Of a stretch of 64,000 nt of DNA, positions 4,355-45,294 are shown one piece after another. The notes under the pieces are model-generated. The model saw nothing but the letters and a program-made list of their open reading frames with translations, was not told the DNA's origin and ran no database searches. This stretch comes from Siphonodentalium dalli (taxonomy: Eukaryota; Mollusca; Scaphopoda; Gadilida; Siphonodentaliidae). Within the stretch, counting starts at the first letter, position 1, and each line of letters starts with the position of its first letter. The stretch covers positions 83,106,705 to 83,170,704 of the forward strand of contig CP136067.1 of the NCBI GenBank assembly GCA_032622095.1, given 5' to 3'. The position numbers and the translations under genes were made by a program.

Positions 4355-7300
4355 TCTTATATCTATATCTATATTTGCGAATGTCTGTCTGTCTGTCTGT
4401 CTGTCTGTGTTCTATAGAAATTCACAGGGGACCATCTAGATGATGCCAAAGGGGTCTACTAGGGGTAGCTTTTTACGAGAAAGATAATGGTCGGGGTTAG
4501 AATTTTCTAAAGTGACGCCGTTGTTGTCAGGGGCAGAAAAGGGGGAGGGGCAGAAAAAAAATTTGTCGCCGATTGCCACCAAACTTATATATAATCATCC
4601 CCATAATATGAGGAATATAATGGCGTGGTTTAAATATGGCAAAAGTCGCGCCGTTCGCGTCAGGGGTGCCCGGAAGGGGGGGGGGCAGATTTTTTTTCTC
4701 TCGCCGATTGCCACGAAACTTACATATAATCATCCCCATGATATGAAAAATCAACGGTGTGGTTTAAATTTGTCAAAAGTGGCGTCGTTTGAGCCAGGGA
4801 TGAACGGAAGGGGAGAGGGGCACCAAAATTGATAAAACTAATTTTAGCGCCGATTTCCACCAAATTTATATATATTCTTCTTCATGATACAAGAAATCTA
4901 ATTGTGCGATTTAACAACGCCAAATTATTGTTTTTGGATGAGAGATTGGGAGGGGGTGGGCACTAATTTTGATAATTTCGATGGCACCAAATTGATAAAA
5001 AAAATTGTTTAGTCGCCGATTATCACCAAACTTATAAACAATCATCTCCATGATATCAGGAGTGTAATCGTGTGGTTTTAGGATGTCACAAGTGGGGCCA
5101 TTCGAGTCAGTGGCGTATAGAGATGAGAGGGACACAAAAAAAAAATATCTATATGTTTAGTGCCGATTTCCACCAGATTGATACATATTCTTCTCCGTGA
5201 TACGAGGAATCTTATCGTGTGGTTTAGATACACCAAATTGGTGCCCTATGGGTGAGATATATGGGGACCTTAATTTTGATACGAATTTGTATACTCGCCA
5301 ATTTTCACCAATTTCATATATATGCATCTCTAATCTCTAATGAGTCTTAGTGTGTGTAGCTTGAGTCCGAAATAGGGACGGGAGCGTCACCAAAACTGAT
5401 ACAAAATATATTTAGTACCAATTACCATCAAATTCAGACACGTTCTTCTCAAATGATACAGGAAATAAAAGCGTGCTGTCTGTCTGTCTTTTTGTCTGTC
5501 TGTGTGCGTTCTATATATAACTTCTCGCGGTACAATCGAATGGCACCAAGGCGTTCTAAGAGGGGTAATTTTTAACAAGGAAGATAATGGTGCGGGTTAA
5601 AATTTTCTAAAATGACGCTGTTGGCGGGATGGGAAATTAAAATAATATGGTGAAATAGTTTTGTCGCTGATTTCCACCAAACGAATACATAATCATCTTC
5701 CCAATATTGTGTTGTTCGAGTCAGCGTTGCATCAACAATTGATTTAATAAACCAAATTCCACCAAATTCATACACTTTTTTCTCTAATGATATACCATGA
5801 ATTAAATCACATTTGGTGTCGTTTGCGTCACGGATGGCGAGCGGATATGCACTATCATTGATAATTCTTGCTATTCGCCGATATCCACATATAAGATATA
5901 TACAGTCACCAGGCCATCTCCATATGTAGCTTGAGTCCGAAATAGGGACGGGAGCGTCACCAAAACTGATACAAAATATATTTAGTACCAATTACCATCA
6001 AATTCAGACACGTTCTTCTCAAATGATACAAGAAATAAAAGCGTGCTGTCTGTCTGTCTTTTTGTCTGTCTGTGTGCGTTCTATATATAACTTCTCGCGG
6101 TACAATCGAATGGCACCAAGGCGTTCTAAGAGGGGTAATTTTTAACAAGGAAGATAATGGTGCGGGTTAAAATTTTCTAAAATGACGCTGTTGGCGGGAT
6201 GGGAAATTAAAAAAATATGGTGAAATAGTTTTGTCGCTGATTTCCACCAAACGAATACATAATCATCTTCCCAATATTGTGTTGTTCGAGTCAGCGTTGC
6301 ATCAACAATTGATTTAATAAACCAAATTCCACCAAATTCATACACTTTTTTCTCTAATGATATACCATGAATTAAATCACATTTGGTGTCGTTTGCGTCA
6401 CGGATGGCGAGCGGATATGCACTATCATTGATAATTCTTGCTATTCGCCGATATCCACATATAAGATATATACAGTCACCAGGCCATCTCCATATCATTT
6501 TAAGTAGTTGGGCGTTCACATTTCACAATCCCGACATATGGTGACCCACATAAGTCACTTGAACAATTATATCTTCTTAACAGTCATATTTATATGGGAA
6601 TGGCAATCAAGGCATTCACACAATGAGCTAGCAAAAAGAGATAACTAGAAGAAGCATTAAACGTATATGTATCATTCTATTGAAGAGATACATATATTCG
6701 TGCAAACTGAGAGACCTCGAACCGTCAGAGGATTGCATATATATAATAACAAAATTTAGTGTGTTCCATTCAATACAGTTTCCACAAAAAGTTACAATTT
6801 GTCAACAGACATGGAAGGCCTACAGTGTGCAGTCAAATATAGTTTCTTCTGATATACAAGAAAATGCAGTTAGTATCACAAGACTTTTCAGGATCCTACC
6901 AATACTGACATCTGACAAGGGTTTTAGAACAGACTCATCGACTGACATAAACAACTCAAAATCTCGCTCTGTGCCTGGCACATATAGCTGATATATGTGT
7001 GAAGCAACATTTCGTTTAAACTAAGAATATTTAGCCAATATATAGCACCATGAACAGATGAGCACCTGGGAATTTCTTTGAAACATCTGTATCTTCGTGG
7101 AGATATGATAGCCAGGTGTCATCGAGATCTTAGTTCAACCCACTAGATTGATTGATACATCTCAATATGTAAAACCCAATTATCATCTTTTATCGAACTA
7201 ATGTGTTTATGATGTTCATGTATCATATTATAACGTCTAATGTATACGCAGTTGTAAATAAATAAATACTTCATTATTGGTGGAACGGATTAATCGCGAT

Positions 7301-15393: not shown

Positions 15394-16248
15394 CACAATA
15401 TTATCCTTGGGAACGTGGAATACCACTGGCATCATGTCCCCTGCACTCTATTTAAGTCACTTATTGACGAGTGGAACTTAGATGTATGTGGAATTTCTGA
15501 ACACTGGTTAAATCTAAAGATATAGATTTCTTTCAAGCAATTCATAAGGATTATGATTTTTGTGCTGTTTCTGATTTTTCCAGCGCCTCCCAATGCAAAG
15601 GGGGAGAAACTCTGGAGGGATAGCCCTGTTTTTGGAAGAGAGATAAATGCGGCGAATCAGTTTCGCAGCTCGATATTGACGATCACCGTGTAATTGGCAT
15701 ACAACTTCGTACATGTACAAGCTATGTCTGTGTCATTGAAGTTTATCTACTATCAACGAATCACTCTTATGCTGAATTTGAAAAGTACATGGAATTACTC
15801 AAATCCATATGGGATAATTATAATGTTCATTGCAAGGTAATTTTCATGGGGGATTTTAACGCTGGTGCCCGCGGCCCCCTCCTGAAAAGATTTTTGAAAT
15901 CAATTGATAGTGTTTCCATGAACAACAAACTAGCTGGCAGTGATTAACCTATGTTCCAGCAATGAATTATGCTGGCTCCATTATCGACCACCTTGTTGTG
16001 AGTGAGTCGGACTCTCACCTAGTTCTTCATTGTGAAGTATCAGATGACGACGTGTCAAATGTATCAAACCATAGAGCGCTTTTACTCCGTTTGGACATCT
16101 CTATGTCGCCATCTTCGGATGAATATAAAAGTATTAACCGCCCACGGTATAACTGGAAACGTTTCAGATCGGACGAAAATGTGTTGACCGCATACCAGGA
16201 TGACCTTAGTTGTAGCTTACCAAATTATCAGTTAACAAGAGTATCGCT
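15394..16248 (+). pseudogene. Endonuclease domain of retrotransposon ORF2
   Basis: Translating in shifting frames gives the landmarks of the APE/exonuclease-endonuclease-phosphatase fold. They are SLGTWNTTGI (about 15403-15432), CGISEHWL (about 15488-15510, with the catalytic Glu), VIFMGDFNAG (about 15839-15868) and IIDHLVVS (about 15979-16000). A terminal SNHRALLL (about 16063-16085) carries the catalytic His. This domain nicks target DNA to prime reverse transcription. Stops and frame changes near 15480, 15630 and 15945 break it. It is followed by an inserted repeat instead of running on to the reverse transcriptase. Confidence 0.7.
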
Positions 16249-17221
16249 AGGGCGTGGCAAAATACGCCCTTTAGCCATTTCGAATTGTACTATCGCAAAA
16301 TAAGATAATACTTTGAGCTTACATTTGAAGAAAATCTGATATACCCCTAATTTCAATGCCAAAATGTGGTCAATGTAAGTCGAAAAATGGCCATAACTCA
16401 TGTAAAAATAATTAGACATAACCTATATTCAAACTTGGCCTGTAGTTTTAGCTGGGAAATACACATACCAGCTTTGGTTTAGCTCAAATAATCAAAACTG
16501 GAGTTATCGGTCGGAAACCAAAATGTTATGAAATTGGTCAAATTCTAAGTTGAAAAAGGGCCGTAACTCATGTAAAAATAACTGGACGGAACCCATATTC
16601 GAACTTGGCCTGTATCTTTAGCTGGGAAATACACATACCAACTTTGGTTCAGATCAAATAATGCAAACTGGAGTTATCGGTCGGAAACCAAAAATGTTAA
16701 CAGACGGTCAAATTCTAAGTCGAAAAGGGCCGTAACTCATGTAAAAATAATTGGACGGAACCCATATTAGAACTTGGCCTGTATCTTTAGCTAGGAAATA
16801 CACATACCAACTTTGGTTCAGATCAAATAATGCAAATTGGAGTTATCGATCGGAAACCAAAAATGTTAACGGACGGACAGACAGACGGACGGACGGACGT
16901 ACTGGCCAAAGTATACTTGTGGGGTGACCGCACATACCCAAGAATACTTGTGAGGTGCGATCTTTTGTTTGAGTAACTTGTGGGGTGCAACGCACAACTG
17001 ACGATTTTTTAAAGAGCGTATTTTTAAAGAGCGTATTTTTAAAGAAATATTATATTAACGAAATAACGGAGATGGTTTGTAAATAAAACAATTAGAAGAA
17101 AAGCATGTTAAATTCATGTTAAATTCATCGCACCCACAAGTACTCTCTGGTTAGTGCTGACGGACAGACGGGCGGACAGACTGATAACATAATACGACCT
17201 TTTTTCAAAAAGGGCGTATAA
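16249..17221. mobile_element. Insertion carrying 170-bp tandem repeats
   Basis: This block separates the endonuclease from the RT of the retrotransposon. Both edges carry GGGCGT/ACGCCC-type inverted sequences. On the left, GGGCGTGGCAAAATACGCCC forms a small hairpin; on the right, ATACGACC...AAGGGCGTAT does. Inside are three copies of a unit of about 170 bp starting near 16390, 16561 and 16730 (phrase CGTAACTCATGTAAAAATAA), then a GGAC/GGAC-rich run near 16870-16900. A similar unit occurs at 35140-35700. No target duplication is obvious and no gene is present. Confidence 0.55.
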
Positions 17222-17257: not shown

Positions 17258-20001
17258 TTGTCTGTGCTAAATGTCTGTGCTATTCGTTTTTCGGCTGACA
17301 AAACTGTTCCACAAAAATCATTCAAACCGTTTTTAAAGCCTTATTGGACAAAAGAGCTAAACAATTTGCATAATGACATGAAGTATCACATAATTTTGTG
17401 GATAGCTTCTGGTAGGCCTGTAAACGATTCTCCCGGCTTTATGCTGCATACAAAGCGTCGAAATGTTCATTTAGACGCGAATTTCGCAAAGCATCGAAAC
17501 GGTATCAGGACAAGTTCAACGATGACATTGATCAATGCGCTGACAGCGATCAAGACACCATTTTAAGACTATTTAACGCGAAGCTCGGGGACATTGGTAC
17601 GCTGTCAACAAATGTTTTTCGTCAAAATGGTGAAATCCTTAGAGAAACAAATTTCATCGATGAGCATTTAAATTTGTGAAACATTGCGTATGCAGTCTAC
17701 TATCACAATCTGATTTCAGCCCAGTTGATAAATGTGTACCTTTCCCTATCTCAGTTGAAGAATTGGTAGGCCTTTATTGTAAATTGAATCACAACAAAGC
17801 TGCCGGTTTATATATCATAAACTATGAACATATCATATATGGTGGCGAAACACTAGCTTGCTCACTTGTAAAATTGTACAATGCTTTTATTGAATTTGAG
17901 CATATCCCGACTTTGGCAAATCGTGGTTTAATTTTTTCTTTGTACAAAGGTCACCCTAAACCAAAGGATTCTTTCGACAGTTATAGGGCCATAACTCTTT
18001 GAATGGCTCTTGTTATCCAGGATCGAGAATTTCGCATCATCACTTCGGGTTTCAGTCGGGTGTCATGGTATATGAGAGTATCTCCTACATATCGGAGATG
18101 CAGAGCAGACTCTATGCCTGTTTTCTGGACGTATGGAAGGCGTTCGATACTGTTTGGGTAGATGGTTTATTGTACAAGCTACACCATAGACAGTATCGAG
18201 GCAAAAATTTCAGATTAATCCATCAACTTTTGTCTGGCATTTCGTGTTGTCTAACATATAACAACTGCACATCCCGCTGGATCCCGATGGTACAGGGAAC
18301 TCGCCAAGGAAGTACGTTTTCGCCAATAGTTTATACTATCTTCATAGATGCTTTATTATACAGGATAGAGAAGTCGAACGTTAGTTTTAAGCTTTCCAAC
18401 GTCAATTGTTCTTCACCCACCCATGCTGACGATATGGCACTTTGTTCACTTACGTCTTACGGTCTGCAGTCACTGATTGATATTTGTGTCAACTATAGCA
18501 ACTTTTGGAGGTATAGGTACAATCCTACAAAAACAGTAATTTGCATATTTAATGAGTCCGCTGACACTGCGCACAGATCTTGGAATCTTAATGGCCGGAC
18601 AATCATTGAAGGTGATCATGTCACGCATCTGGGGATTCCACTTGAGAAGCATGCATTCCGAACAAAATTTGTGGAGAATATTTGTTCAAAGTTACGTTCA
18701 ACATATTTTATGATTTCAAATGCAGGTTTGTATGCTGGTGGTATGACACATATTAGCTGTCTCAAAATATACAAGTCGGTTGTTCTCCCGCGTGCTTTAT
18801 ATGGCAGTGATCTCCTTTGTGATCTGACTTCATCTGACAAGGGGGGGGCCTCGGCGGCTCAATCGGTTAGGGGTACAACTCCAAGCCGTTTCGCCCTCCA
18901 GCGCTGGCGATTAGGGTTCAAATCCACATGTTTCCATCATGGACTTTGTAACTCGAAATCGTTATCTGGTGGAGTTACCAGTTACTCGCCGATGGCCGGT
19001 GGTTTGCCGCACATGGTTGACGAGTTTATCAGCCATTGAAATCACTGTTAGATTAGTCGCAAGTGTGCGGATTTCCCACACCACTAAAACTGGCAATGTC
19101 GTGATATGGCCTTAGTGGCTAAAGCGACAATAAACCCCAATCAATCAATCAGTTATCTGACAAGGAACGTCTGGAAAAGTCACACCGTCTGTGTTTGAAG
19201 CACATTCAAGGCTTGCCAATGCGTATACGTGCCGAAATCGTTCTAGGTCTTTTGTGGTGTTTTCCTATTGAGCGAGACATTGAATACAGAAAGTTTTCTT
19301 TGTTTTGCTCAGTATGTCATCTTAAACGGGGGAAGTCCGCGAAGGAGATCTTCCTGTACAGACTATTTCAATATGTGACATGCCTCAAGCTGTCAATAGG
19401 AACGCCTGCTCTGATTTGTTCCAGTTACTACACAAACGGGGCCTTCTTGAGAACGTTTATGCGTATCTCTCTTCTGTGGCATTCCCGGACAAATGTTTGT
19501 GGAAATGTTTTGTCGGACAGAGTGACTTAATTTGGGAACTGTCTTGGTCTTCCAGAACTAAGTATGATATATATTTTTGGAGATTCAACTCAGCCGATTC
19601 TTGCGTGCAAATGTCATATACATGGAAAGCCTGTAAGAAATTTCCGTCGGAGAAAGGCAACTTTTACGTAGCGGCAAAACTTTTATTGCTCAAAATTATT
19701 TGGTGATGAAGAATCTTGTCACGTGTGTGGCACATCCTACACTGACAGAACGGCGCACATTTTACTTTATTGCTCATTCTTAGAGGCCGATATACTTTGT
19801 TTCTGGTATGACTTGATCGACACTTTCCATGTAAATACTTTTATTTCTGTAGACTCTATGTCATTAGACGATCAATTACTTTTATTTCTGGGTGTTATTC
19901 CTATAGAAACTCTATCACAGCATTACAATGACGAGGAGCTTTCGCTTATGGGAGTTTTTCTTAAGGCAACACATGATATGTGGTTTAAATGGAGCTTATA
20001 G
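17258..20001 (+). pseudogene. Reverse transcriptase ORF2 of the master copy, broken
   Basis: Landmarks in order: FLKPYWTKEL (linker, about 17324), FDSYRAITL ending at 18000, and the catalytic block LDVWKAFDTVWVDGLLYKL (about 18126-18182). GTRQGSTFSPIVYTIFID (about 18297-18350), PTHADDMALCS (about 18416-18448, the ADD active site), and after the SINE the CHVCGTSYTDRTAHILLYC zinc knuckle (about 19720-19776) follow. The C terminus is MWFKWSL with a stop at 19999-20001. Defects include a stop and probable deletion at 18000, a SINE at 18843-19154, and frame changes near 19380 and 19690. The same post-RT frame changes occur in all four downstream copies. Confidence 0.8.
18843..19154 (+). mobile_element. 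tRNA-derived SINE, unit 1
   Basis: A 312-bp insertion in the RT ORF flanked by the 11-bp duplication ATCTGACAAGG (18832-18842 and 19155-19165). The head carries tRNA-like RNA polymerase III promoter boxes: A box GGCTCAATCGGTTAG (18856-18870) and B box GGTTCAAATCC (18915-18925). A tRNA-unrelated body follows, and it ends in (TCAA)n. Internal pol III boxes, a microsatellite tail and a target duplication define a SINE. It has no coding role; the open frame running through it is accidental. Confidence 0.85.
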
Positions 20002-21279
20002 CGCGTCCGGGACGCCGACAAAGAATGTCTGACTTACATTAGCTCTCATTTTCATTGAAAGTCATATTTTCGCTAATTAACAGCAATCTCAATTATGTTC
20101 TCTTTTTAACAACCGAACGTTTAATAACATACGCCAACTTAACGGTTATTAAACGTTCAGTAGTTATATGCACATTCAAGAGTTCTGTTATCGTTAAAAC
20201 GCAGCGACGCGGTGAGCAGGATGCACACTCTGGACCTCCCGTACCCTGAAATTATGTGCTAATTCCAATGAAAATTGTTAAATATGTTGATCTTTAAAAT
20301 TTGCAAAGATATACTGTTTCCACAATTAACTTTCGGTCGATCTAAGTGATGAAAGCACTGTCCCGAGCCTGCAGCATGCTTTCTGTTTTGCCATGTCGCT
20401 GTGGGGAATGGGTCTGTTAGTGAATGTGTAGCTTTATGCTACGGTCTGTTGACATATATCTGTATCTATTGTCAAGAATGTGTGTGCTTGTTTTTATTTA
20501 TTTAATTATTTATTTATGTATGTATGTATTTATCTATTTATTGTGTGCCTATGTGTGATTGTATTGATGAGTGCTTGTGTCTCATGGTGGCAGGAATTAC
20601 TATTTACTTTCCTTTCTATATTTATAATTTTATTGTAACATGTATTTTGTAAAACATACTCTCCTAGCTGGTGGGAAATAAAGATATATGTATATAATTT
20701 ATCAATCTTTTCAAGGTTTGTACAATAATATGTTTTTTTTATCCATGGGTTGAGTTATTTCCTCTAGTACGTGTGTCAGAACAAGAATAGTAGAATGATA
20801 TATGCTAAAGCCATATGGACTATTATATAAGATGTTGTAATTGGTTAGATAACCACTCAATCTGTTATACATTAGTTTCTCGAAAAAATTTGAAACTGGT
20901 CTGTTTTGCTTAGAAGAGTTGGGTATTTGGATATGAAGATGGGGCTTACTTTTGCTGTCTTCATAAGATCTGGAAATGCTCCATTAGCTAGCAAATATAG
21001 CTAGCATATATGAGTTAAAGGTAATATAAACTATTCAAGCATATAATTATGGGTTTTCTTTTGTGACCATTGTGGACACATTTAGTTCTTAGAAATTATC
21101 CGTATCTGCGCAAACTAAAGCTGGCGCATATGCGACTAATTTTCCACCCTGATAGAAATTCCAGTTTCTAAAAACCGCATATAATTGGAAAGCCTATACA
21201 TCATGTTGGAGGAAATCGGTGATAATATGTTTGGTTTTTTTATCAATTTTGTTTCCACGCTGACAAACCCATGCACTTT

Positions 21280-24200
21280 TGTCTGGCATTTCGTGTTGTC
21301 TAACATATAACAACTGCACATCCCGCTGGATCCCGATGGTACAGGGAACTCGCCAAGGAAGTACGTTTTCGCCAATAGTTTATACTATCTTCATAGATGC
21401 TTTATTATACAGGATAGAGAAGTCGAACGTTAGTTTTAAGCTTTCCAACGTCAATTGTTCTTCACCCACCCATGCTGACGATATGGCACTTTGTTCACTT
21501 ACGTCTTACGGTCTGCAGTCACTGATTGATATTTGTGTCAACTATAGCAACTTTTGGAGGTATAGGTACAATCCTACAAAAACAGTAATTTGCATATTTA
21601 ATGAGTCCGCTGACACTGCGCACAGATCTTGGAATCTTAATGGCCGGACAATCATTGAAGGTGATCATGTCACGCATCTGGGGATTCCACTTGAGAAGCA
21701 TGCATTCCGAACAAAATTTGTGGAGAATATTTGTTCAAAGTTACGTTCAACATATTTTATGATTTCAAATGCAGGTTTGTATGCTGGTGGTATGACACAT
21801 ATTAGCTGTCTCAAAATATACAAGTCGGTTGTTCTCCCGCGTGCTTTATATGGCAGTGATCTCCTTTGTGATCTGACTTCATCTGACAAGGGGGGGGGCC
21901 TCGGCGGCTCAATCGGTTAGGGGTACAACTCCAAGCCGTTTCGCCCTCCAGCGCTGGCGATTAGGGTTCAAATCCACATGTTTCCATCATGGACTTTGTA
22001 ACTCGAAATCGTTATCTGGTGGAGTTACCAGTTACTCGCCGATGGCCGGTGGTTTGCCGCACATGGTTGACGAGTTTATCAGCCATTGAAATCACTGTTA
22101 GATTAGTCGCAAGTGTGCGGATTTCCCACACCACTAAAACTGGCAATGTCGTGATATGGCCTTAGTGGCTAAAGCGACAATAAACCCCAATCAATCAATC
22201 AGTTATCTGACAAGGAACGTCTGGAAAAGTCACACCGTCTGTGTTTGAAGCACATTCAAGGCTTGCCAATGCGTATACGTGCCGAAATCGTTCTAGGTCT
22301 TTTGTGGTGTTTTCCTATTGAGCGAGACATTGAATACAGAAAGTTTTCTTTGTTTTGCTCAGTATGTCATCTTAAACGGGGGAAGTCCGCGAAGGAGATC
22401 TTCCTGTACAGACTATTTCAATATGTGACATGCCTCAAGCTGTCAATAGGAACGCCTGCTCTGATTTGTTCCAGTTACTACACAAACGGGGCCTTCTTGA
22501 GAACGTTTATGCGTATCTCTCTTCTGTGGCATTCCCGGACAAATGTTTGTGGAAATGTTTTGTCGGACAGAGTGACTTAATTTGGGAACTGTCTTGGTCT
22601 TCCAGAACTAAGTATGATATATATTTTTGGAGATTCAACTCAGCCGATTCTTGCGTGCAAATGTCATATACATGGAAAGCCTGTAAGAAATTTCCGTCGG
22701 AGAAAGGCAACTTTTACGTAGCGGCAAAACTTTTATTGCTCAAAATTATTTGGTGATGAAGAATCTTGTCACGTGTGTGGCACATCCTACACTGACAGAA
22801 CGGCGCACATTTTACTTTATTGCTCATTCTTAGAGGCCGATATACTTTGTTTCTGGTATGACTTGATCGACACTTTCCATGTAAATACTTTTATTTCTGT
22901 AGACTCTATGTCATTAGACGATCAATTACTTTTATTTCTGGGTGTTATTCCTATAGAAACTCTATCACAGCATTACAATGACGAGGAGCTTTCGCTTATG
23001 GGAGTTTTTCTTAAGGCAACACATGATATGTGGTTTAAATGGAGCTTATAGCGCGTCCGGGACGCCGACAAAGAATGTCTGACTTACATTAGCTCTCATT
23101 TTCATTGAAAGTCATATTTTCGCTAATTAACAGCAATCTCAATTATGTTCTCTTTTTAACAACCGAACGTTTAATAACATACGCCAACTTAACGGTTATT
23201 AAACGTTCAGTAGTTATATGCACATTCAAGAGTTCTGTTATCGTTAAAACGCAGCGACGCGGTGAGCAGGATGCACACTCTGGACCTCCCGTACCCTGAA
23301 ATTATGTGCTAATTCCAATGAAAATTGTTAAATATGTTGATCTTTAAAATTTGCAAAGATATACTGTTTCCACAATTAACTTTCGGTCGATCTAAGTGAT
23401 GAAAGCACTGTCCCGAGCCTGCAGCATGCTTTCTGTTTTGCCATGTCGCTGTGGGGAATGGGTCTGTTAGTGAATGTGTAGCTTTATGCTACGGTCTGTT
23501 GACATATATCTGTATCTATTGTCAAGAATGTGTGTGCTTGTTTTTATTTATTTAATTATTTATTTATGTATGTATGTATTTATCTATTTATTGTGTGCCT
23601 ATGTGTGATTGTATTGATGAGTGCTTGTGTCTCATGGTGGCAGGAATTACTATTTACTTTCCTTTCTATATTTATAATTTTATTGTAACATGTATTTTGT
23701 AAAACATACTCTCCTAGCTGGTGGGAAATAAAGATATATGTATATAATTTATCAATCTTTTCAAGGTTTGTACAATAATATGTTTTTTTTATCCATGGGT
23801 TGAGTTATTTCCTCTAGTACGTGTGTCAGAACAAGAATAGTAGAATGATATATGCTAAAGCCATATGGACTATTATATAAGATGTTGTAATTGGTTAGAT
23901 AACCACTCAATCTGTTATACATTAGTTTCTCGAAAAAATTTGAAACTGGTCTGTTTTGCTTAGAAGAGTTGGGTATTTGGATATGAAGATGGGGCTTACT
24001 TTTGCTGTCTTCATAAGATCTGGAAATGCTCCATTAGCTAGCAAATATAGCTAGCATATATGAGTTAAAGGTAATATAAACTATTCAAGCATATAATTAT
24101 GGGTTTTCTTTTGTGACCATTGTGGACACATTTAGTTCTTAGAAATTATCCGTATCTGCGCAAACTAAAGCTGGCGCATATGCGACTAATTTTCCACCCT

Positions 24201-24329
24201 GATAGAAATTCCAGTTTCTAAAAACCGCATATAATTGGAAAGCCTATACATCATGTTGGAGGAAATCGGTGATAATATGTTTGGTTTTTTTATCAATTTT
24301 GTTTCCACGCTGACAAACCCATGCACTTT
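21280..24329 (+). pseudogene. RT fragment, tandem unit 2
   Basis: Near-identical to unit 1. The RT text begins at LSGISCC, keeps GTRQGSTFSP and HADDMAL, is cut by the SINE at 21892-22204 (duplication ATCTGACAAGG at 21881-21891 and 22205-22215), and resumes to the zinc knuckle and MWFKWSL stop at 23051. It shares the unit-1 variant lacking the 9-bp insertion. It lacks the FDTVW block and everything upstream, so it cannot encode a functional enzyme. Confidence 0.85.
21892..22204 (+). mobile_element. tRNA-derived SINE, unit 2
   Basis: Copy of the unit-1 SINE at the identical RT position, with the same 11-bp target duplication. It was therefore carried along by the tandem amplification and is not an independent insertion. 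The G run at the 5' junction is one base longer than in unit 1. Confidence 0.85.
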
Positions 24330-27300
24330 TGTCTGGCATTTCGTGTTGTCTAACATATAACAACTGCACATCCCGCTGGATCCCGATGGTACAGGGAACT
24401 CGCCAAGGAAGTACGTTTTCGCCAATAGTTTATACTATCTTCATAGATGCTTTATTATACAGGATAGAGAAGTCGAACGTTAGTTTTAAGCTTTCCAACG
24501 TCAATTGTTCTTCACCCACCCATGCTGACGATATGGCACTTTGTTCACTTACGTCTTACGGTCTGCAGTCACTGATTGATATTTGTGTCAACTATAGCAA
24601 CTTTTGGAGGTATAGGTACAATCCTACAAAAACAGTAATTTGCATATTTAATGAGTCCGCTGACACTGCGCTTAAAACAAACAGATCTTGGAATCTTAAT
24701 GGCCGGACAATCATTGAAGGTGATCATGTCACGCATCTGGGGATTCCACTTGAGAAGCATGCATTCCGAACAAAATTTGTGGAGAATATTTGTTCAAAGT
24801 TACGTTCAACATATTTTATTATTTCAAATGCAGGTTTGTATGCTGGTGGTATGACACATATTAGCTGTCTCAAAATATACAAGTCGGTTGTTCTCCCGCG
24901 TGCTTTATATGGCAGTGATCTCCTTTGTGAGCAGACTTCATCTGACAAGGGGGGGGGCTCGGTGGCTCAATCGGTTAGGGGTACAACTCCAAGCCGTTTC
25001 GCCCTCCAGCGCTGGCGATTAGGGTTCATATCCACATGTTTCCATCGTGGACTTTGTAACTCGAAATCGTTATCTGGTGGAGTTACCAGTTACTCGCCGA
25101 TGGCCGGTGGTTTGCCGCACATGGTTGACGAGTTTATCAGCCATTGAAATCACTGTTAGATTAGTCGCAAGTGTGCGGATTTCCTCCACCACTAAAACTG
25201 GCAATGTCGTGATATGGCCTTAGTGGCTAAAGCGACAATAAACCCCAATCAATCAATCAATCATCTGACAAGGAACGTCTGGAAAAGTCACACCGTCTGT
25301 GTTTAAAGCACATTCAAGGCTTGCCAATGCGTATACGTACCGATATCGTTCTAGGTCTTCTGGGGTGTTTTCCTATTGAGCGAGACATTGAATACAGAAA
25401 GTTTTCTTTGTTTTGCTCAGTATGTCATCTTAAACGGGGGAAGTCCGCGAAGGAGATCTTCCTGTACAGACTATTTCAATATGTGACATGCCTCAAGCTG
25501 TCAATAGGAACGCCTGCTCTGATTTGTTCCAGTTACTACACAAACGGGGCCTTCTTGAGAACGTTTATGCGTATCTCTCTTCTGTGGCATTCCCGGACAA
25601 ATGTTTGTGGAAATGTTTTGTCGGACAGAGTGACTTAATTTGGGAACTGTCTTGGTCTTCCAGAACTAAGTATGATATATATTTTTGGAGATTCAACTCA
25701 GCCGATTCTTGCGTGCAAATGTCATATACATGGAAAGCCTGTAAGAAATTTCCGTCGGAGAAAGGCAACTTTTACGTAGCGGCAAAACTTTTATTGCTCA
25801 AAATTATTTGGTGATGAAGAATCTTGTCACGTGTGTGGCACATCCTACACTGACAGAACGGCGCACATTTTACTTTATTGCTCATTCTTAGAGGCCGATA
25901 GACTTTGTTTCTGGTATGACTTGATCGACACTTTCCATGTAAATACTTTTATTTCTGTAGACTCTATGTCATTAGACGATCAATTACTTTTATTTCTGGG
26001 TGTTATTCCTATAGAAACTCTATCACAGCATTACAATGACGAGGAGCTTTCGCTTATGGGAGTTTTTCTTAAGGCAACACATGATATGTGGTTTAAATGG
26101 AGCTTATAGCGCGTCCGGGACGCCGACAAAGAATGTCTGACTTACATTAGCTCTCATTTTCATTGAAAGTCATATTTTCGCTAATTAACAGCAATCTCAA
26201 TTATGTTCTCTTTTTAACAACCGAACGTTTAATAACATACGCCAACTTAACGGTTATTAAACGTTCAGTAGTTATATGCACATTCAAGAGTTCTGTTATC
26301 GTTAAAACGCAGCGACGCGGTGAGCAGGATGCACACTCTGGACCTCCCGTACCCTGAAATTATGTGCTAATTCCAATGAAAATTGTTAAATATGTTGATC
26401 TTTAAAATTTGCAAAGATATACTGTTTCCACAATTAACTTTCGGTCGATCTAAGTGATGAAAGCACTGTCCCGAGCCTGCAGCATGCTTTCTGTTTTGCC
26501 ATGTCGCTGTGGGGAATGGGTCTGTTAGTGAATGTGTAGCTTTATGCTACGGTCTGTTGACATATATCTGTATCTATTGTCAAGAATGTGTGTGCTTGTT
26601 TTTATTTATTTAATTATTTATTTATGTATGTATGTATTTATCTATTTATTGTGTGCCTATGTGTGATTGTATTGATGAGTGCTTGTGTCTCATGGTGGCA
26701 GGAATTACTATTTACTTTCCTTTCTATATTTATAATTTTATTGTAACATGTATTTTGTAAAACATACTCTCCTAGCTGGGGGGAAATAAAGATATATGTA
26801 TATAATTTATCAATCTTTTCAAGGTTTGTACAATAATATGTTTTTTTTATCCATGGGTTGAGTTATTTCCTCTAGTACGTGTGTCAGAACAAGAATAGTA
26901 GAATGATATATGCTAAAGCCATATGGACTATTATATAAGATGTTGTAATTGGTTAGATAACCACTCAATCTATTATACATTAGTTTCTCGAAAAAATTTG
27001 AAACTGGTCTGTTTTGCTTAGAAGAGTTGGGTATTTGGATATGAAGATGGGGCTTACTTTTGCTGTCTTCATAAGATCTGGAAATGCTCCATTAGCTAGC
27101 AAATATAGCTAGCATATATGAGTTAAAGGTAATATAAACTATTCAAGCATATAATTATGGGTTTTCTTTTGTGACCATTGTGGACACATTTAGTTCTTAG
27201 AAATTATCCGTATCTGCGCAAACTAAAGCTGGCGCATATGCGAATAATTTTCCACCCTGATAGAAATTCCAGTTTCTAAAAACCGCATATAATTGGAAAG

Positions 27301-27387
27301 CCTATACATCATGTTGGAGGAAATCGGTGATAATATGTTTGTTTTTTTTATCAATTTTGTTTCCACGCTGACAAACCCATGCACTTT
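24330..27387 (+). pseudogene. RT fragment, tandem unit 3
   Basis: Same content as unit 2, with the second variant set: a 9-bp in-frame insertion near 24671 (adds LKTN in place of H) and GAGCAG for GATCTG near 24929. The SINE lies at 24951-25262, the zinc knuckle near 25828-25884 and the stop at 26109. The frame changes downstream of the SINE are the same as in unit 1, so the copy was dead before amplification. Confidence 0.85.
24951..25262 (+). mobile_element. tRNA-derived SINE, unit 3
   Basis: Same insertion as in unit 1. Here the target duplication reads as 12 bp, CATCTGACAAGG (24939-24950 and 25262-25273), because the base before it is preserved. That suggests this is closest to the original insertion junction. 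The tail is a slightly longer (TCAA)n than in units 1-2. Confidence 0.85.
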
Positions 27388-30300
27388 TGTCTGGCATTTC
27401 GTGTTGTCTAACATATAACAACTGCACATCCCGCTGGATCCCGATGGTACAGGGAACTCGCCAAGGAAGTACGTTTTCGCCAATAGTTTATACTATCTTC
27501 ATAGATGCTTTATTATACAGGATAGAGAAGTCGAACGTTAGTTTTAAGCTTTCCAACGTCAATTGTTCTTCACCCACCCATGCTGACGATATGGCACTTT
27601 GTTCACTTACGTCTTACGGTCTGCAGTCACTGATTGATATTTGTGTCAACTATAGCAACTTTTGGAGGTATAGGTACAATCCTACAAAAACAGTAATTTG
27701 CATATTTAATGAGTCCGCTGACACTGCGCTTAAAACAAACAGATCTTGGAATCTTAATGGCCGGACAATCATTGAAGGTGATCATGTCACGCATCTGGGG
27801 ATTCCACTTGAGAAGCATGCATTCCGAACAAAATTTGTGGAGAATATTTGTTCAAAGTTACGTTCAACATATTTTATTATTTCAAATGCAGGTTTGTATG
27901 CTGGTGGTATGACACATATTAGCTGTCTCAAAATATACAAGTCGGTTGTTCTCCCGCGTGCTTTATATGGCAGTGATCTCCTTTGTGAGCAGACTTCATC
28001 TGACAAGGGGGGGGCTCGGTGGCTCAATCGGTTAGGGGTACAACTCCAAGCCGTTTCGCCCTCCAGCGCTGGCGATTAGGGTTCAAATCCACATGTTTCC
28101 ATCGTGGACTTTGTAACTCGAAATCGTTATCTGGTGGAGTTACCAGTTACTCGCCGATGGCCGGTGGTTTGCCGCACATGGTTGACGAGTTTATCAGCCA
28201 TTGAAATCACTGTTAGATTAGTCGCAAGTGTGCGGATTTCCTCCACCACTAAAACTGGCAATGTCGTGATATGGCCTTAGTGGCTAAAGCGACAATAAAC
28301 CCCAATCAATCAATCAATCATCTGACAAGGAACGTCTGGAAAAGTCACACCGTCTGTGTTTAAAGCACATTCAAGGCTTGCCAATGCGTATACGTACCGA
28401 TATCGTTCTAGGTCTTCTGGGGTGTTTTCCTATTGAGCGAGACATTGAATACAGAAAGTTTTCTTTGTTTTGCTCAGTATGTCATCTTAAACGGGGGAAG
28501 TCCGCGAAGGAGATCTTCCTGTACAGACTATTTCAATATGTGACATGCCTCAAGCTGTCAATAGGAACGCCTGCTCTGATTTGTTCCAGTTACTACACAA
28601 ACGGGGCCTTCTTGAGAACGTTTATGCGTATCTCTCTTCTGTGGCATTCCCGGACAAATGTTTGTGGAAATGTTTTGTCGGACAGAGTGACTTAATTTGG
28701 GAACTGTCTTGGTCTTCCAGAACTAAGTATGATATATATTTTTGGAGATTCAACTCAGCCGATTCTTGCGTGCAAATGTCATATACATGGAAAGCCTGTA
28801 AGAAATTTCCGTCGGAGAAAGGCAACTTTTACGTAGCGGCAAAACTTTTATTGCTCAAAATTATTTGGTGATGAAGAATCTTGTCACGTGTGTGGCACAT
28901 CCTACACTGACAGAACGGCGCACATTTTACTTTATTGCTCATTCTTAGAGGCCGATAGACTTTGTTTCTGGTATGACTTGATCGACACTTTCCATGTAAA
29001 TACTTTTATTTCTGTAGACTCTATGTCATTAGACGATCAATTACTTTTATTTCTGGGTGTTATTCCTATAGAAACTCTATCACAGCATTACAATGACGAG
29101 GAGCTTTCGCTTATGGGAGTTTTTCTTAAGGCAACACATGATATGTGGTTTAAATGGAGCTTATAGCGCGTCCGGGACGCCGACAAAGAATGTCTGACTT
29201 ACATTAGCTCTCATTTTCATTGAAAGTCATATTTTCGCTAATTAACAGCAATCTCAATTATGTTCTCTTTTTAACAACCGAACGTTTAATAACATACGCC
29301 AACTTAACGGTTATTAAACGTTCAGTAGTTATATGCACATTCAAGAGTTCTGTTATCGTTAAAACGCAGCGACGCGGTGAGCAGGATGCACACTCTGGAC
29401 CTCCCGTACCCTGAAATTATGTGCTAATTCCAATGAAAATTGTTAAATATGTTGATCTTTAAAATTTGCAAAGATATACTGTTTCCACAATTAACTTTCG
29501 GTCGATCTAAGTGATGAAAGCACTGTCCCGAGCCTGCAGCATGCTTTCTGTTTTGCCATGTCGCTGTGGGGAATGGGTCTGTTAGTGAATGTGTAGCTTT
29601 ATGCTACGGTCTGTTGACATATATCTGTATCTATTGTCAAGAATGTGTGTGCTTGTTTTTATTTATTTAATTATTTATTTATGTATGTATGTATTTATCT
29701 ATTTATTGTGTGCCTATGTGTGATTGTATTGATGAGTGCTTGTGTCTCATGGTGGCAGGAATTACTATTTACTTTCCTTTCTATATTTATAATTTTATTG
29801 TAACATGTATTTTGTAAAACATACTCTCCTAGCTGGGGGAAAATAAAGATATATGTATATAATTTATCAATCTTTTCAAGGTTTGTACAATAATATGTTT
29901 TTTTTATCCATGGGTTGAGTTATTTCCTCTAGTACGTGTGTCAGAACAAGAATAGTAGAATGATATATGCTAAAGCCATATGGACTATTATATAAGATGT
30001 TGTAATTGGTTAGATAACCACTCAATCTATTATACATTAGTTTCTCGAAAAAATTTGAAACTGGTCTGTTTTGCTTAGAAGAGTTGGGTATTTGGATATG
30101 AAGATGGGGCTTACTTTTGCTGTCTTGATAAGATCTGGAAATGCTCCATTAGCTAGCAAATATAGCTAGCATATATGAGTTAAAGGTAATATAAACTATT
30201 CAAGCATATAATTATGGGTTTTCTTTTGTGACCATTGTGGACACATTTAGTTCTTAGAAATTATCCGTATCTGCGCAAACTAAAGCTGGCGCATATGCGA

Positions 30301-30444
30301 ATAATTTTCCACCCTGATAGAAATTCCAGTTTCTAAAAACCGCATATAATTGGAAAGCCTATACATCATGTTGGAGGAAATCGGTGATAATATGTTTGTT
30401 TTTTTTATCAATTTTGTTTCCACGCTGACAAACCCATGCACTTT
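27388..30444 (+). pseudogene. RT fragment, tandem unit 4
   Basis: Carries the unit-3 variant set (LKTN insertion, GAGCAG) and the SINE at 28009-28319. A shorter G run at the SINE junction shifts the local frame relative to unit 3, so the open frame stops at 28079. The C-terminal part ends at 29166. No intact domain set remains. Confidence 0.85.
28009..28319 (+). mobile_element. tRNA-derived SINE, unit 4
   Basis: Same SINE and site, with duplication ATCTGACAAGG at 27998-28008 and 28320-28330. A and B boxes are intact by eye. Confidence 0.85.
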
Positions 30445-33400
30445 TGTCTGGCATTTCGTGTTGTCTAACATATAACAACTGCACATCCCGCTGGATCCCG
30501 ATGGTACAGGGAACTCGCCAAGGAAATACGTTTTCGCCAATAGTTTATACTATCTTCATAGATGCTTTATTATACAGGATAGAGAAGTCGAACGTTAGTT
30601 TTAAGCTTTCCAACGTCAATTGTTCTTCACCCACCCATGCTGACGATATGGCACTTTGTTCACTTACGTCTTACGGTCTGCAGTCACTGATTGATATTTG
30701 TGTCAACTATAGCAACTTTTGGAGGTATAGGTACAATCCTACAAAAACAGTAATTTGCATATTTAATGAGTCCGCTGACACTGCGCTTAAAACAAACAGA
30801 TCTTGGAATCTTAATGGCCGGACAATCATTGAAGGTGATCATGTCACGCATCTGGGGATTCCACTTGAGAAGCATGCATTCCGAACAAAATTTGTGGAGA
30901 ATATTTGTTCAAAGTTACGTTCAACATATTTTATTATTTCAAATGCAGGTTTGTATGCTGGTGGTATGACACATATTAGCTGTCTCAAAATATACAAGTC
31001 GGTTGTTCTCCCGCGTGCTTTATATGGCAGTGATCTCCTTTGTGAGCAGACTTCATCTGACAAGGGGGGGGCTCGGTGGCTCAATCGGTTAGGGGTACAA
31101 CTCCAAGCCGTTTCGCCCTCCAGCGCTGGCGATTAGGGTTCAAATCCACATGTTTCCATCGTGGACTTTGTAACTCGAAATCGTTATCTGGTGGAGTTAC
31201 CAGTTACTCGCCGATGGCCGGTGGTTTGCCGCACATGGTTGACGAGTTTATCAGCCATTGAAATCACTGTTAGATTAGTCGCAAGTGTGCGGATTTCCTC
31301 CACCACTAAAACTGGCAATGTCGTGATATGGCCTTAGTGGCTAAAGCGACAATAAACCCCAATCAATCAATCAATCATCTGACAAGGAACGTCTGGAAAA
31401 GTCACACCGTCTGTGTTTAAAGCACATTCAAGGCTTGCCAATGCGTATACGTACCGATATCGTTCTAGGTCTTCTGGGGTGTTTTCCTATTGAGCGAGAC
31501 ATTGAATACAGAAAGTTTTCTTTGTTTTGCTCAGTATGTCATCTTAAACGGGGGAAGTCCGCGAAGGAGATCTTCCTGTACAGACTATTTCAATATGTGA
31601 CATGCCTCAAGCTGTCAATAGGAACGCCTGCTCTGATTTGTTCCAGTTACTACACAAACGGGGCCTTCTTGAGAACGTTTATGCGTATCTCTCTTCTGTG
31701 GCATTCCCGGACAAATGTTTGTGGAAATGTTTTGTCGGACAGAGTGACTTAATTTGGGAACTGTCTTGGTCTTCCAGAACTAAGTATGATATATATTTTT
31801 GGAGATTCAACTCAGCCGATTCTTGCGTGCAAATGTCATATACATGGAAAGCCTGTAAGAAATTTCCGTCGGAGAAAGGCAACTTTTACGTAGCGGCAAA
31901 ACTTTTATTGCTCAAAATTATTTGGTGATGAAGAATCTTGTCACGTGTGTGGCACATCCTACACTGACAGAACGGCGCACATTTTACTTTATTGCTCATT
32001 CTTAGAGGCCGATAGACTTTGTTTCTGGTATGACTTGATCGACACTTTCCATGTAAATACTTTTATTTCTGTAGACTCTATGTCATTAGACGATCAATTA
32101 CTTTTATTTCTGGGTGTTATTCCTATAGAAACTCTATCACAGCATTACAATGACGAGGAGCTTTCGCTTATGGGAGTTTTTCTTAAGGCAACACATGATA
32201 TGTGGTTTAAATGGAGCTTATAGCGCGTCCGGGACGCCGACAAAGAATGTCTGACTTACATTAGCTCTCATTTTCATTGAAAGTCATATTTTCGCTAATT
32301 AACAGCAATCTCAATTATGTTCTCTTTTTAACAACCGAACGTTTAATAACATACGCCAACTTAACGGTTATTAAACGTTCAGTAGTTATATGCACATTCA
32401 AGAGTTCTGTTATCGTTAAAACGCAGCGACGCGGTGAGCAGGATGCACACTCTGGACCTCCCGTACCCTGAAATTATGTGCTAATTCCAATGAAAATTGT
32501 TAAATATGTTGATCTTTAAAATTTGCAAAGATATACTGTTTCCACAATTAACTTTCGGTCGATCTAAGTGATGAAAGCACTGTCCCTAGCCTGCAGCATG
32601 CTTTCTGTTTTGCCATGTCGCTGTGGGGAATGGGTCTGTTAGTGAATGTGTAGCTTTATGCTACGGTCTGTTGACATATATATATGTATCTATTGTCAAG
32701 AATGTGTGTGCTTGTTTTTATTTATTTAATTATTTATTTATGTATGTATTTATCTATTTATTGTGTGCCTGTGTGTGATTGTATTGATGAGTGCTTGTGT
32801 CTCATGGTGGCAGGAATTACTATTTACTTTCCTTTCTATATTTATAATTTTATTGTAACATGTATTTTGTAAAACATACTCTCCTAGCTGGGGGGAAATA
32901 AAGATATATGTATATAATTTAGCAATCTTTTCAAGGTTTGTACAATAATATGGTTTTTTTTATCCATGGGTTGAGTTATTTCCTCTAGTACGTGTGTCAG
33001 AACAAGAATAGTAGAATGATATATGCTAAAGCCATATGGACTATTATATAAGATGTTGTAATTGGTTAGATAACCACTCAATCTATTATACATTAGTTTC
33101 TCGAAAAAATTTGAAACTGGTCTGTTTTGCTTAGAAGAGTTGGGTATTTGGATATGAAGATGGGGCTTACTTTTGCTGTCTTCATAAGATCTGGAAATGC
33201 TCCATTAGCTAGCGAATATAGCTAGCATATATGAGTTAAAGGTAATATAAACTATTCAAGCATATAATTATGGGTTTTCTTTTGTGACCATTGTGGACAC
33301 ATTTAGTTCTTAGAAATTATCCGTATCTGCGCAAACTAAAGCTGGCGCATAGGCGACTAATTTTCCACCCTGATAGAAATTCCAGTTTCTAAAAACCGCA

Positions 33401-33499
33401 TATAATTGGAAAGCCTATACATCATGTTGGAGGAAATCGGTGATAATATGTTTTTTTTTTCATCAATTTTGTATCCACGCTGACAAACCCATGCACTTT
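30445..33499 (+). pseudogene. RT fragment, tandem unit 5 (last)
   Basis: Carries the unit-3/4 variants in the RT part (with a private change GTRQGN for GTRQGS near 30528) and the SINE at 31066-31376. The stop of the C-terminal part is at 32223. Its 3' end has private differences (TCCCTAGCC near 32584, GCATAGGCG near 33347, TTTTTTTTTTCATC near 33460) and runs into unique DNA at 33500. It therefore holds the ancestral right flank of the array. Confidence 0.85.
31066..31376 (+). mobile_element. tRNA-derived SINE, unit 5
   Basis: Same SINE and site, with duplication ATCTGACAAGG at 31055-31065 and 31377-31387. Confidence 0.85.
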
Positions 33500-35139: not shown

Positions 35140-35700
35140 CAAAAATAGAAGGAAAACTGAATTTTCTAAAAAAAAAATGAATTTTTTAAGTCGAAAAAGG
35201 GTCATAACTCTAACAAAAATTATCCGATTGAACCGAAATTTTACCTTGTTATCAAGTTATCATCTGGAAACCAAAAAAAGTAGCAGAACAACCTGAATTT
35301 TCTAAGTCCAAAAAGGGGCGTAACTCTGGAAAAAATGGGCGGACGAAACCACGGCTATGGGGAAATCTTGTTCCCCCGGCTGGTCTATTGGCATACCAAA
35401 GATCAACTGAATTGAATTAGCGAAACCAAAGTTATGAGTTGAAACGTTCGTATGCCACAGAAAACTGAATTTTCTAAGTCCAAAAAGGGGCGTAACTCTG
35501 GAAAAAAATGGGCGGCCGAAACCGCAGTTATGGGGAAATCTTGTCCCCCCGGCGGGTCTATTAGCATATCAAAGATCAACTGAATTGAGTTAGCGAAACC
35601 AAAGTTATGAGTTGAAACGTTCGCACGGACGGAAGGACGGATGGACGGAATGACGGACGGACGGACGGACGGACGGAGGGCTCCACTATATACCCCCAAA
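35140..35700. repeat. Repeat block with units of about 172 bp and (GGAC)n tail
   Basis: The phrase AAGTCC/GAAAAAGGG(T/G)CATAACTCT recurs at about 35187, 35304 and 35476; the last two units are near-identical over about 170 bp. The block ends in a GGAC-rich run (35630-35688) and a small inverted repeat around 35697-35720. It resembles the insertion at 16249-17221 in phrase and period, so the two are probably one family. Confidence 0.6.
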
Positions 35701-41539: not shown

Positions 41540-43026
41540 TAGGAAATATTTCTCTGCAAGAGTGCATTGTACCACATCCATAAATTGGCAGTAATCGTTA
41601 CCATGAAGTCCAGAAAGACGTCTATATCATCAACTGCTGTACACATATCACCAGTAATATGAGTCAAATGAAGCAAGATCATTTCGTCCATTGAAAGATC
41701 ATCAATCTTGATAAACATTCTACGCCATAACGATCAATAATATCAAAAAACATATTATTCCGTAGTGATGTCAGGGAACTGCATTCAATGAGAACGTGCC
41801 GTACTTTATCAAGGTACATTTTATAGCAGTTAGGGCACTGGATTAGTGCTTCGTTTAAGTACGTTGTTGCATCGATCACAAGAGCTGTGGTTAGATAGGA
41901 ATGTCTATTATGTGAAAATTTTCGACAGAGTCGCCAAAGATCAGACATGTTTAGGTTGTCATGTACATTCCGAAACCGATTGAATGATGGGTCAATTTCC
42001 GTTCTAATTTTCCAATCTGACTCGGTTGTGTTTCGAATATTATTTCTCGTTAGCGCCTTCCGCGACTCTTTCGAGAGAAATACGCCAGACCTGATGTACT
42101 CATATACTGCATCAGTCAAGTTGTATTTCACGAGTAATGAAAATACTTCGCCAATAAAAGTTGTTGTCGGGTTCTGTGAGTAAACGTAATCAAACAGCCT
42201 AGTTTCAAAGATTGTTTTACAAGCCTTTCCAGGCGTTAGTCGACAAAGGGCTCCAAAGAGTGAAATTTTTCTGGCATCAATACTAACTTGAAGTGGATAT
42301 GTTCCTAGCAGGCCAGTAACGACATCGGTCCTGCATCGGGCAGGTAGGCCCTGAATACGCTTCAAGCAAAATCTGTGAACTCTTTCGAGCTTGATCAAGT
42401 TAGAGGCTGATAAGCCACAGAGAAATTCTGAACCGTAAAGTCCACGAGAAAGTACCACTGATTTATATATTACCATTGAACTCTGAGGTGTTATGCCTCC
42501 TGCGTACGTATACCAGCAGTGCTTAACATAAGATATGTCGATGGAATATTTGAGCTGACACTTTCTGTAAGAGTGTTTGGAAAGTCACTTTTGTGTAATG
42601 GTATGCCCAGGTGCGTGACTGAATCCGTTTTATTAACTGCTATGCCATTTAGCATCCATGTGCGATTGATAGAGGCGTATTTAGATTTCTCATTGAAGAT
42701 AATTACCTGACATTTCTGTTGGTTATACATAAATCGCCATTTTTTACTGTAATTGCCACATATATTACACATTTTTTGTATGCCATATGATGAAAGCGAG
42801 AGGAGGGTCATATCATCTGCCTGTGTGGGAGACGAGCAGTTGATATCTCGCAGCCTGAAACCAAAGTTCGAGTGTTCGAGCTCATTGAGCAAACTGTCTA
42901 TGTAGATGGCGTAGAAAATCGGAGCGAGGGTACTTCCCTGCCTTGTTCCCTGGCTAATAGATATTATACGTGATGTAAGATTTTCGTGGCGTATATTGCA
43001 GCTCACGCCAGTTAAGAATTGTTTAA
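41540..43026 (-). pseudogene. RT C-terminal half, two frame changes
   Basis: On the minus strand: FLTGVSC, SQGTRQGSTLAPIFYAIYID, PTQADDMTLLSL (ADD active site), THLGIPL, then a frame change near 42510-42525. After it come AGGITPQ, MVIYKSVVLSRGLYGSEFLC, GLPARCRTDVVTGLLGTYPL and the knuckle CPNCYKMYLDKVRHVLIEC (about 41838-41782). A second frame change near 41690 leads to LHLTHITGDM...NLWMWYNALLQ and a TAG at 41540-41542. These align block by block with the plus-strand copies (for example LPMRIRAEIVLGLLWCFPI). Everything upstream of the GTRQGS region is absent. Confidence 0.75.
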
Positions 43027-43200
43027 CGCCAGTTAAAATAGTCACATCTGCTAAAACCGCAATAAACAGAAAAAATATTAAAATATAGGCATATTTCGTT
43101 CTTATACCGATCATATATAATATATCGTAAATAGTATTATATTGTCAAGTTCGTACGATGTGTTAGTAAACAAAAGCCATGTTATGTTTACAGTACAGTG
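43026..43200. repeat. Dispersed repeat shared with 55650-56060
   Basis: The minus strand from about 43115 reads GATCGGTATAAGAACG...CTATATTTTA.TATT.TTTCTGTTTAT, matching the plus strand at about 55963-56010. The plus strand at 43140-43185 (TATTGTCAAGTTCGTACGATG...GTAAACAAAAGCC) matches 55676-55720. The hydrophobic N-terminal residues that an open frame would add to the RT here (MIGIRTKYAYILIFFLF) come from this repeat and are not part of the enzyme. Confidence 0.55.
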
Positions 43201-44560: not shown

Positions 44561-44992
44561 CTAGCCGATGAGCCCGACGTTGTCCGGGCTATTCAAAAAC
44601 CAAATTTCAAGTCGATAGCTCCACCCGTTTCCGATATCTGGTCTGCGCATGCGCGAAGCTGGCGTCGCACGGGCTCGGCGACCCGATAAAATTCGTATCC
44701 GGGGCATGATACATTCACATACCAAATTTCAAGTCGATAGCTCCACCCGTTTCCGAGATCTCGTCTGCGCATGCGCGAAGCTGGCGTCGCACGGGCTCGG
44801 CGACCCGATAAAATTCGTATCCGGGGCAAGATACATTCACATACCAAATTTCAAGTCGATAGCTCAACCCGTTTCCGAGATCTCGTCTGCGCATGCGCGA
44901 AGCTGGCGTCGCACGGGCTCGGCGACCCGATAAAATTCTTATTCGGGGCAAGATACATTCACATACCAAATTTCAAGTCGATAGCTCCACCT
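44561..44992 (-). mobile_element. Helitron-like element, satellite array, 5' end missing
   Basis: CTAG at 44561-44564 and hairpin at 44571-44590 mark the 3' end. The body is three 122-bp units (GCGCATGCGC near 44645, 44767, 44889). It stops mid-unit at 44992 where the next CTAG begins, with no TC end, so it is truncated or recombined. Confidence 0.5.
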
Positions 44993-45294
44993 AGCCGATG
45001 AGCCCGACGTTGTCCGGGCTATTCATCCGGGCTATTCAAAAACCAAATTTCAAGTCGATAGCTCCACCCGTTTCCGAGATCTCGTCTGCGCATGCGCGAA
45101 GCTGACGTCGCACGGGCTCGGTGACCCGATAAAATTCGTATCCGGGGCAAGATACATTCACATACCAAATTTCAAGTCGATAGCTCCACCCGTTTCCGAG
45201 ATCTCGTCTGCGCATGCGCGAAGCAGGCGCCGCACGGGCTCGCCAATACGACAACGTTCACCGCCTGGTCAAACTACACTCACGTACCAAGATT
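44993..45294 (-). mobile_element. Helitron-like element, truncated
   Basis: CTAG at 44993-44996 and a hairpin followed by two 122-bp units (GCGCATGCGC near 45088 and 45210). The 5' leader is cut at about 45294 where a different repeat (ATGGCGGC-rich) begins. Confidence 0.5.

Follow-up and report, generated by a model that had tools for sequence, protein, structure and literature searches.

A tandem array assembled from remnants of transposable elements (TEs) lies in the genome of the scaphopod Siphonodentalium dalli, within a window of 64,000 nucleotides (the whole stretch of DNA analyzed here; C7:83,106,705-83,170,704, C7 being contig CP136067.1 of GCA_032622095.1, an assembly of 2.23 Gb in nine contigs of 190-301 Mb each). 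Five head-to-tail units of 3,049-3,058 bp fill window positions 18,226-33,499. BLASTN comparison of the window with itself aligned 18217-30444 with 21266-33499 at 99.5% identity and recovered the higher multiples of the period as well; together with an alignment of the units, it bears out the five-unit array of ~3.05-kb period claimed in a preliminary description of this DNA. With a shared ACTTT counted into the start of each, units 1 to 5 occupy 18226..21274 (3049 bp), 21275..24324 (3050 bp), 24325..27382 (3058 bp), 27383..30439 (3057 bp), and 30440..33494 (3055 bp) of the plus strand, the bracketed lengths being the successive periods along the array, and a terminal ACTTT follows at 33495-33499. 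The start had previously been put at 18231, which becomes 18226 if the ACTTT is included; the earlier end, 33499, agrees with ours.

Each unit comprises the 3′ half of the reverse-transcriptase (RT) region of a long interspersed nuclear element (LINE), a 312-bp insert resembling a short interspersed nuclear element (SINE), the LINE 3′ end, and ~580 bp of flank. Its TE content is made up of the LINE part, the SINE-like insert, and an old dispersed repeat in the flank. Among open frames of at least 130 amino acids, those within the units are LINE pieces, some of which extend into the SINE-like insert, and none stems from a host gene. Five head-to-tail units of kilobase size and such composition place the array among the composite-TE megasatellites or macrosatellites.

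The LINE that carries the units is a broken copy on the plus strand, extending from about 15400 (an approximate bound, set by eye) to 20696 (set from copies elsewhere in the genome), with an interruption at ~16230-17220 (bounds by eye) where a short run of 170-bp tandem repeats and its flanks intervene. RVT_1 matches window positions 17987-18847 (E 1.1e-21), and relatives of solved structure, as found by sequence, include R2 and LINE-1 ORF2 proteins. Because the RVT_1 match crosses the left breakpoint of the array at 18226, unit 1 stands in its original left context, inside the RT region of the LINE. A genome search for LINE copies listed 76 matches from the 39 scored of 2,873 candidates; the array itself is absent from these matches, from which no copy number can be derived. 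Among the matches listed, 30 of 76 end beyond unit position 2450, with 27 of the 30 stopping at 2470-2481 and the remaining three at 2467, 2487, and 2493, and the LINE 3′ end accordingly lies near unit position 2480 (window 20,696). The LINE is therefore a dispersed multicopy family whose copies have a common 3′ end, that is, a non-long-terminal-repeat (non-LTR) retrotransposon. A search for a target-site duplication (TSD) of the LINE itself gave one 10-bp AT-rich match only, which does not prove its insertion. A second broken LINE, at 41679-43144 on the minus strand, also matches RVT_1 (E 8.8e-13) and displays ~51% amino acid identity to the array LINE over 171-173 RT residues.

The SINE-like insert of unit 1 (18843..19154, plus strand, 312 bp) is bordered by an 11-bp TSD, ATCTGACAAGG, at 18832-18842 and 19155-19165, and it occupies the identical place in all five units, as the preliminary description had stated. 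Among the LINE matches listed, all 22 that end at unit position 626 are followed by a match starting at 936-941, with an overlap of 9-14 bases in the genome, a pattern expected from an empty site with a short TSD. The search skips very common words, and the absence of matches over unit positions 627-935 is thus no count of SINEs. From these 22, 15 LINE copies having both sides of the site close together were taken, a nonrandom selection that could miss copies with an insert there; the site is empty in 15/15, with 0 to 3 mismatches across its 21 bases and no SINE match. Since the site is empty in these copies and filled in 5/5 units, insertion of the SINE-like element preceded amplification. 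A 135-amino-acid frame after the insert ends at an identical stop in every unit. The LINE copy was already broken before it was amplified, and the earlier claim that the amplified DNA was dead holds up. The designation of the insert as a tRNA-SINE stands in part: a short insert with an 11-bp TSD is present, but a tRNA origin was not confirmed, as ARAGORN found 0 tRNA genes and Rfam gave no tRNA family among matches at E ≤ 1 for 18800-19200. Motifs resembling A and B boxes were picked out by eye. No copy of the insert was present in 22 fetched stretches of 10 kb.

The flank part of unit 1 spans 20697..21274 on the plus strand. A search of the assembly with the piece 20,700-21,265, in which 29/29 candidates were scored and very common words were skipped, retrieved full-length matches at five places only, namely the five units (100, 100, 99, 99, and 98% identity). 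Positions 24-340 of the piece drew 24 weaker matches at 66-90%, and the rest drew one further match of 52 bp. What had been called host flank is indeed ~580 bp beyond the LINE end, but ~320 bp of it (20723-21039) is itself an old dispersed repeat, the remainder being nearly unique. The right-hand junction of the array, CATGCACTTTGGCATC, occurs once in 2.23 Gb. The preliminary description had proposed searching the assembly for other arrays or a single-copy ancestor; carried out with the right junction and the flank, the search found neither. The array is confined to one locus in this assembly, with no satellite family behind it: in place of the many loci or long arrays of such a family, the full flank is found at five places, all within the array. 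The dispersed repeat in the flank has a distribution of its own on contig C2, where eight partial matches, all on the plus strand, are spaced ~20-42 kb apart over C2:168,441,536-168,621,856, which suggests a tandem family with very long units.

The ends of the amplified segment can be read directly. The left breakpoint, within the LINE RT region (ACTTT at 18226..18230, plus strand), and the right breakpoint, at the junction given above (ACTTT at 33495..33499, plus strand), have exactly 5 bp in common, and the four internal junctions display one sequence in exact phase; the 5-bp microhomology of the preliminary description is thereby confirmed. Among 147,883 random pairs of breakpoints 2-4 kb apart in the same window outside the array, 0.74% have at least 5 bp in common. 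Tandem segmental duplications begun at microhomology have breakpoints with a few bases in common and no long homology, and the array breakpoints, with exactly 5 bp, fit this definition. For this one event, the ACTTT favors a microhomology-assisted join over a blunt one. Elsewhere in the window, a recent two-copy tandem duplication with a 570-bp unit (99.65% identity) occupies 5355-6495.

Comparison of the units, as pairwise substitutions across 3,043-3,057 compared columns, revealed two classes. Units 1 and 2 show three differences, all in the first 9 alignment columns and before the junction, so that no substitution separates them inside the unit; they differ in length by 1 bp, within a run of G. 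Between units 3 and 4 there are 3 substitutions and, in that run, a 1-bp difference. Unit 5 is 11 substitutions away from unit 3 and 12 from unit 4, and units 1-2 differ from units 3-5 by 21-31. The two classes, {1,2} and {3,4,5}, are set apart by 19 substitutions and a 9-bp indel. In addition to some private indels, unit 5 carries nine private substitutions, eight of them in its final 900 bp (columns 2159-3050), a clustering that was equaled in 166 of 20,000 random placements.

The class differences are distributed still more unevenly. A patch at alignment columns 357-1049 (18573..19255 in unit 1, plus strand) holds 15 of the 19 class substitutions and the 9-bp indel, giving a substitution density of 2.2%, compared with 0.17% (4/19) for the remaining 2.36 kb. 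The same 15 fall inside one window of 560 columns, a concentration that 20,000 random placements never matched. The patch is no mutation hotspot: when unit 3 is compared with five other LINE copies, the difference is 5.5% and 7.1% for the two LINE parts of the patch and 7.5%, 8.6%, and 10.0% for the other blocks. Between units 1 and 3, 8/363 sites differ in those parts, compared with 1/1452 in blocks I and III (Fisher p = 1.8e-5) and 1/322 in block IV. An even mutational clock between the unit classes was rejected on the ground of this clustering of substitutions in a region that is not a hotspot. Because the class differences are packed into such a region, the array is a recombination mosaic, in which either most of each unit has been homogenized or the patch came from a diverged allele. 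The preliminary description had taken the two variant classes as a record of at least two rounds of expansion. The classes stand, with their 19 substitutions and 9-bp indel, and more than one step of amplification or exchange is supported; the packing of the differences into one patch, however, indicates that exchange or conversion took place among units or alleles that had diverged, rather than a clean record of expansions.

The 15 other LINE copies also allow sites within the patch to be polarized (positions follow the numbering of unit 3, ~1 below the alignment columns; site 947 and the SINE sites, for which there are no outgroup letters, are left out of the count, and columns after 1060 were dropped as an end effect of the cut). 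Units 1-2 are derived at 990 and 1024, where 15/15 copies match units 3-5, and at 1029, where 14 do so and one has a third state. They are also derived at 1048, although this site is weakened by three copies having the T of units 1-2 (12/15 are as units 3-5). The 9-bp deletion in units 1-2 is likewise derived, the bases being present in 13/13 copies that reach that place. Conversely, units 3-5 are derived at 616 and 1045 (15/15 copies match units 1-2), at 505 (12/15 as units 1-2, 1/15 as units 3-5, and two with a third state), and at 618 (11/15 as units 1-2 and four with a third state). Derived states on both sides mean that each lineage accumulated changes of its own, as would be expected of two old alleles or two old units. 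At column 2347, which lies outside the patch, the state of unit 5 is that of 4/4 other LINE copies and units 1-4 have another state in common, a hint that the 3′ edge has had a history of its own.

These observations are very probably explained by local tandem segmental duplication, which would have produced a single-locus composite-TE megasatellite of five units in four steps. The LINE inserted and then decayed, and the SINE-like element next entered its RT region; the empty sites elsewhere and the features common to all units establish that both steps had taken place before the third. In that third step, an illegitimate join at ACTTT between the LINE RT region and the downstream flank would have created the first tandem pair. 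The microhomology itself is plain at the breakpoints, and the pathway may have been microhomology-mediated repair or template switching. The number would then have been raised to five by homologous unequal exchange and gene conversion among the 3-kb units, within or between homologues. Their outcome would be a mosaic of homogenized and unhomogenized blocks; such a mosaic is what the alignment displays, and it may have arisen by crossover, by conversion, or through the import of a diverged allele. No function of the array is evident, and its units offer substrates for new changes in copy number.

Several points weigh against this account. A single microhomology supports a pathway only weakly, and in the 570-bp duplication at 5355-6495 only 1 bp is common to the two sides of the join (alignment 571, period 570), so no common junction rule can be claimed. 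The block limits used in the Fisher test were picked after the data were seen. A rooting conflict, which would directly prove exchange, is provided by a single site (2347) next to a microsatellite. Copy number and fixation, finally, rest on a single assembly representing one haplotype of one species.

An assembly artefact would involve a false duplication, in which a shorter array from one haplotype (units 1-2) was concatenated with that from the other (units 3-5), or some other error in the copy number. The divergence between the two groups could be allelic in size, and units 1 and 2 are free of substitutions, so reads may fail to separate them. We nevertheless consider an artefact unlikely, given the single sequence and exact phase at all four internal junctions, the absence of the right junction and full flank from any other place in the assembly, the confinement of class differences mainly to a patch, and the third state at the 3′ edge of unit 5; a second multi-kilobase array occurs in the same assembly, though likewise without read support. 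Most variable sites agree with the grouping {1,2},{3,4},5, as would follow from a clean stepwise expansion, that is, a duplication, divergence into two types, and renewed duplication of each, with variants arising by mutation only. Such a history is very improbable, as mutation alone would not crowd 15/19 substitutions into 560 columns (0/20,000 placements) and the patch region does not evolve fast in other LINE copies.

Import of the patch of units 1-2 by ectopic conversion from a LINE copy elsewhere in the genome would suit a short patch and a multicopy LINE, and at position 1048 the T of units 1-2 does occur in 3/15 other copies. Their states at 990, 1024, and 1029, however, are found in 0/15 copies and the 9-bp deletion in 0/13, and none of the 15 copies (drawn from a larger family) has the SINE that lies within the patch; only a slim chance can be granted to this source. 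Self-amplification of the retrotransposon, through template switching or tandem insertion during target-primed reverse transcription, would account for a LINE 3′ end within the unit, but the unit continues for ~580 bp of flank past that end and begins inside the RT region, and the likelihood of this mechanism is close to nil. Self-transposition was rejected since the unit ends differ from the element ends.

The age assigned to the array depends on what the patch represents. A patch that diverged after the first duplication would mean that the array is not newborn, whereas import of the patch as an allele would allow a very young array, as the substitution-free pair of units 1 and 2 suggests. 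The preliminary description of a macrosatellite caught "at birth" is thus unproven, with the patch 2.2% apart between classes, derived changes on both sides, and a single locus with no satellite family.

Composite-TE megasatellites are an established kind of repeat, as accounts of human and maize arrays attest (PMC2588610, PMC3648361), and the present array is a well-resolved case of ordinary local amplification. The human TE-pattern megasatellites described in 2008 have units of >2 kb with patterns of interspersed TEs and no genes, were attributed "presumably" to unequal crossing over, and can be as short as three units, as at 4p16.1 (16.5 kb, 5.6-kb unit, 3 copies, >99%) (PMC2588610). Like the present array, they are kilobase tandem units of TE patterns, whereas one human family is reported from 11 chromosomes in >25 arrays and the array described here is a single locus of five units with a readable breakpoint microhomology (PMC2588610). 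The great-ape ACRO repeat, reported in a bioRxiv preprint, is likewise composite, with a 6-kb tandem unit containing several TE pieces including L1 fragments, but its arrays, located on acrocentric chromosomes, can be as long as a few hundred kb, compared with one 15-kb array here (PMC12767296).

Maize CRM1TR and CRM4TR are also retrotransposon-derived tandem repeats at few loci, and the proposal made for CRM1TR is that illegitimate recombination began the repeat and gene conversion drove its growth and variation (PMC3648361). Both derive from the LTR and untranslated region (UTR) of a Ty3/gypsy element, lie wholly within the element, and are located in maize centromeres; the present units instead join LINE, SINE, and flank (PMC3648361). 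In the limpet Patella caerulea, the tandem repeat PcH-Sat is similarly linked to a SINE, which the title of that report proposes as the source of the satellite, whereas the SINE here is a passenger in a larger unit (PMC11121367). The value of the S. dalli array is that of a worked example, showing legibly how transposon remnants become a tandem array. Because a multicopy LINE lets sites be polarized, a single locus discloses the founding junction, the succession of events, and the conversion-like mosaic.

Other tandem arrays were sought in a small survey of 20 stretches, each 10 kb long and set by hand at round coordinates on all nine contigs, hence not a random sample. Tandem repeats of at least 150 bp at ≥90% identity were present in 8/20, among them one stretch (L006) with an array of 2375-bp units and another (L019) with a 903-bp unit at 92%. 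The former array, followed through the 8 kb next to it (L029), runs from C2:35,003,208 to beyond 35,018,000, with ≥6.2 copies at ~99% continuing past the fetched end. Within the window, a 1546-bp unit is repeated ~2.5 times at 51175-55059 (99.3%) and contains inverted copies, at 99.6-99.7% identity, of a 692-bp piece at 49749-50440. Multi-kilobase tandem arrays do not look rare in this assembly, from which alone the surveyed arrays are known. A tentative and rather doubtful extension is that young multi-kilobase tandem arrays arise unusually often in this genome, in a graded series from fresh two-copy duplications to at least six units. If so, a series with readable junctions and unhomogenized edge patches would make the passage from microhomology-born duplication to satellite measurable stepwise, a hint that a genome-wide census of such arrays would be worthwhile.

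Shorter repeats are also scattered through the window. Short arrays or fragments of a 122-bp unit occur in both orientations at 1-1026, 3288-3618, 44591-45290, and 47191-47566, and the same period recurs in the left neighbor stretch (L002). Short arrays of a ~170-bp repeat, at 16376-16876 and 35284-35677, are followed by an ACGG-type microsatellite, a kind associated with Pearl/Helentron-like elements. The arrays themselves are reminiscent of the ~160-bp central repeats described for bivalve Pearl/Helentron-like elements in a report whose text does not contain the word ACGG (PMC7492417). Pointing, along with the repeat types, to an animal host, a 355-amino-acid open frame farther downstream, at 56854-57921, matches the rhodopsin-family receptors (7tm_1, E 1.4e-10).

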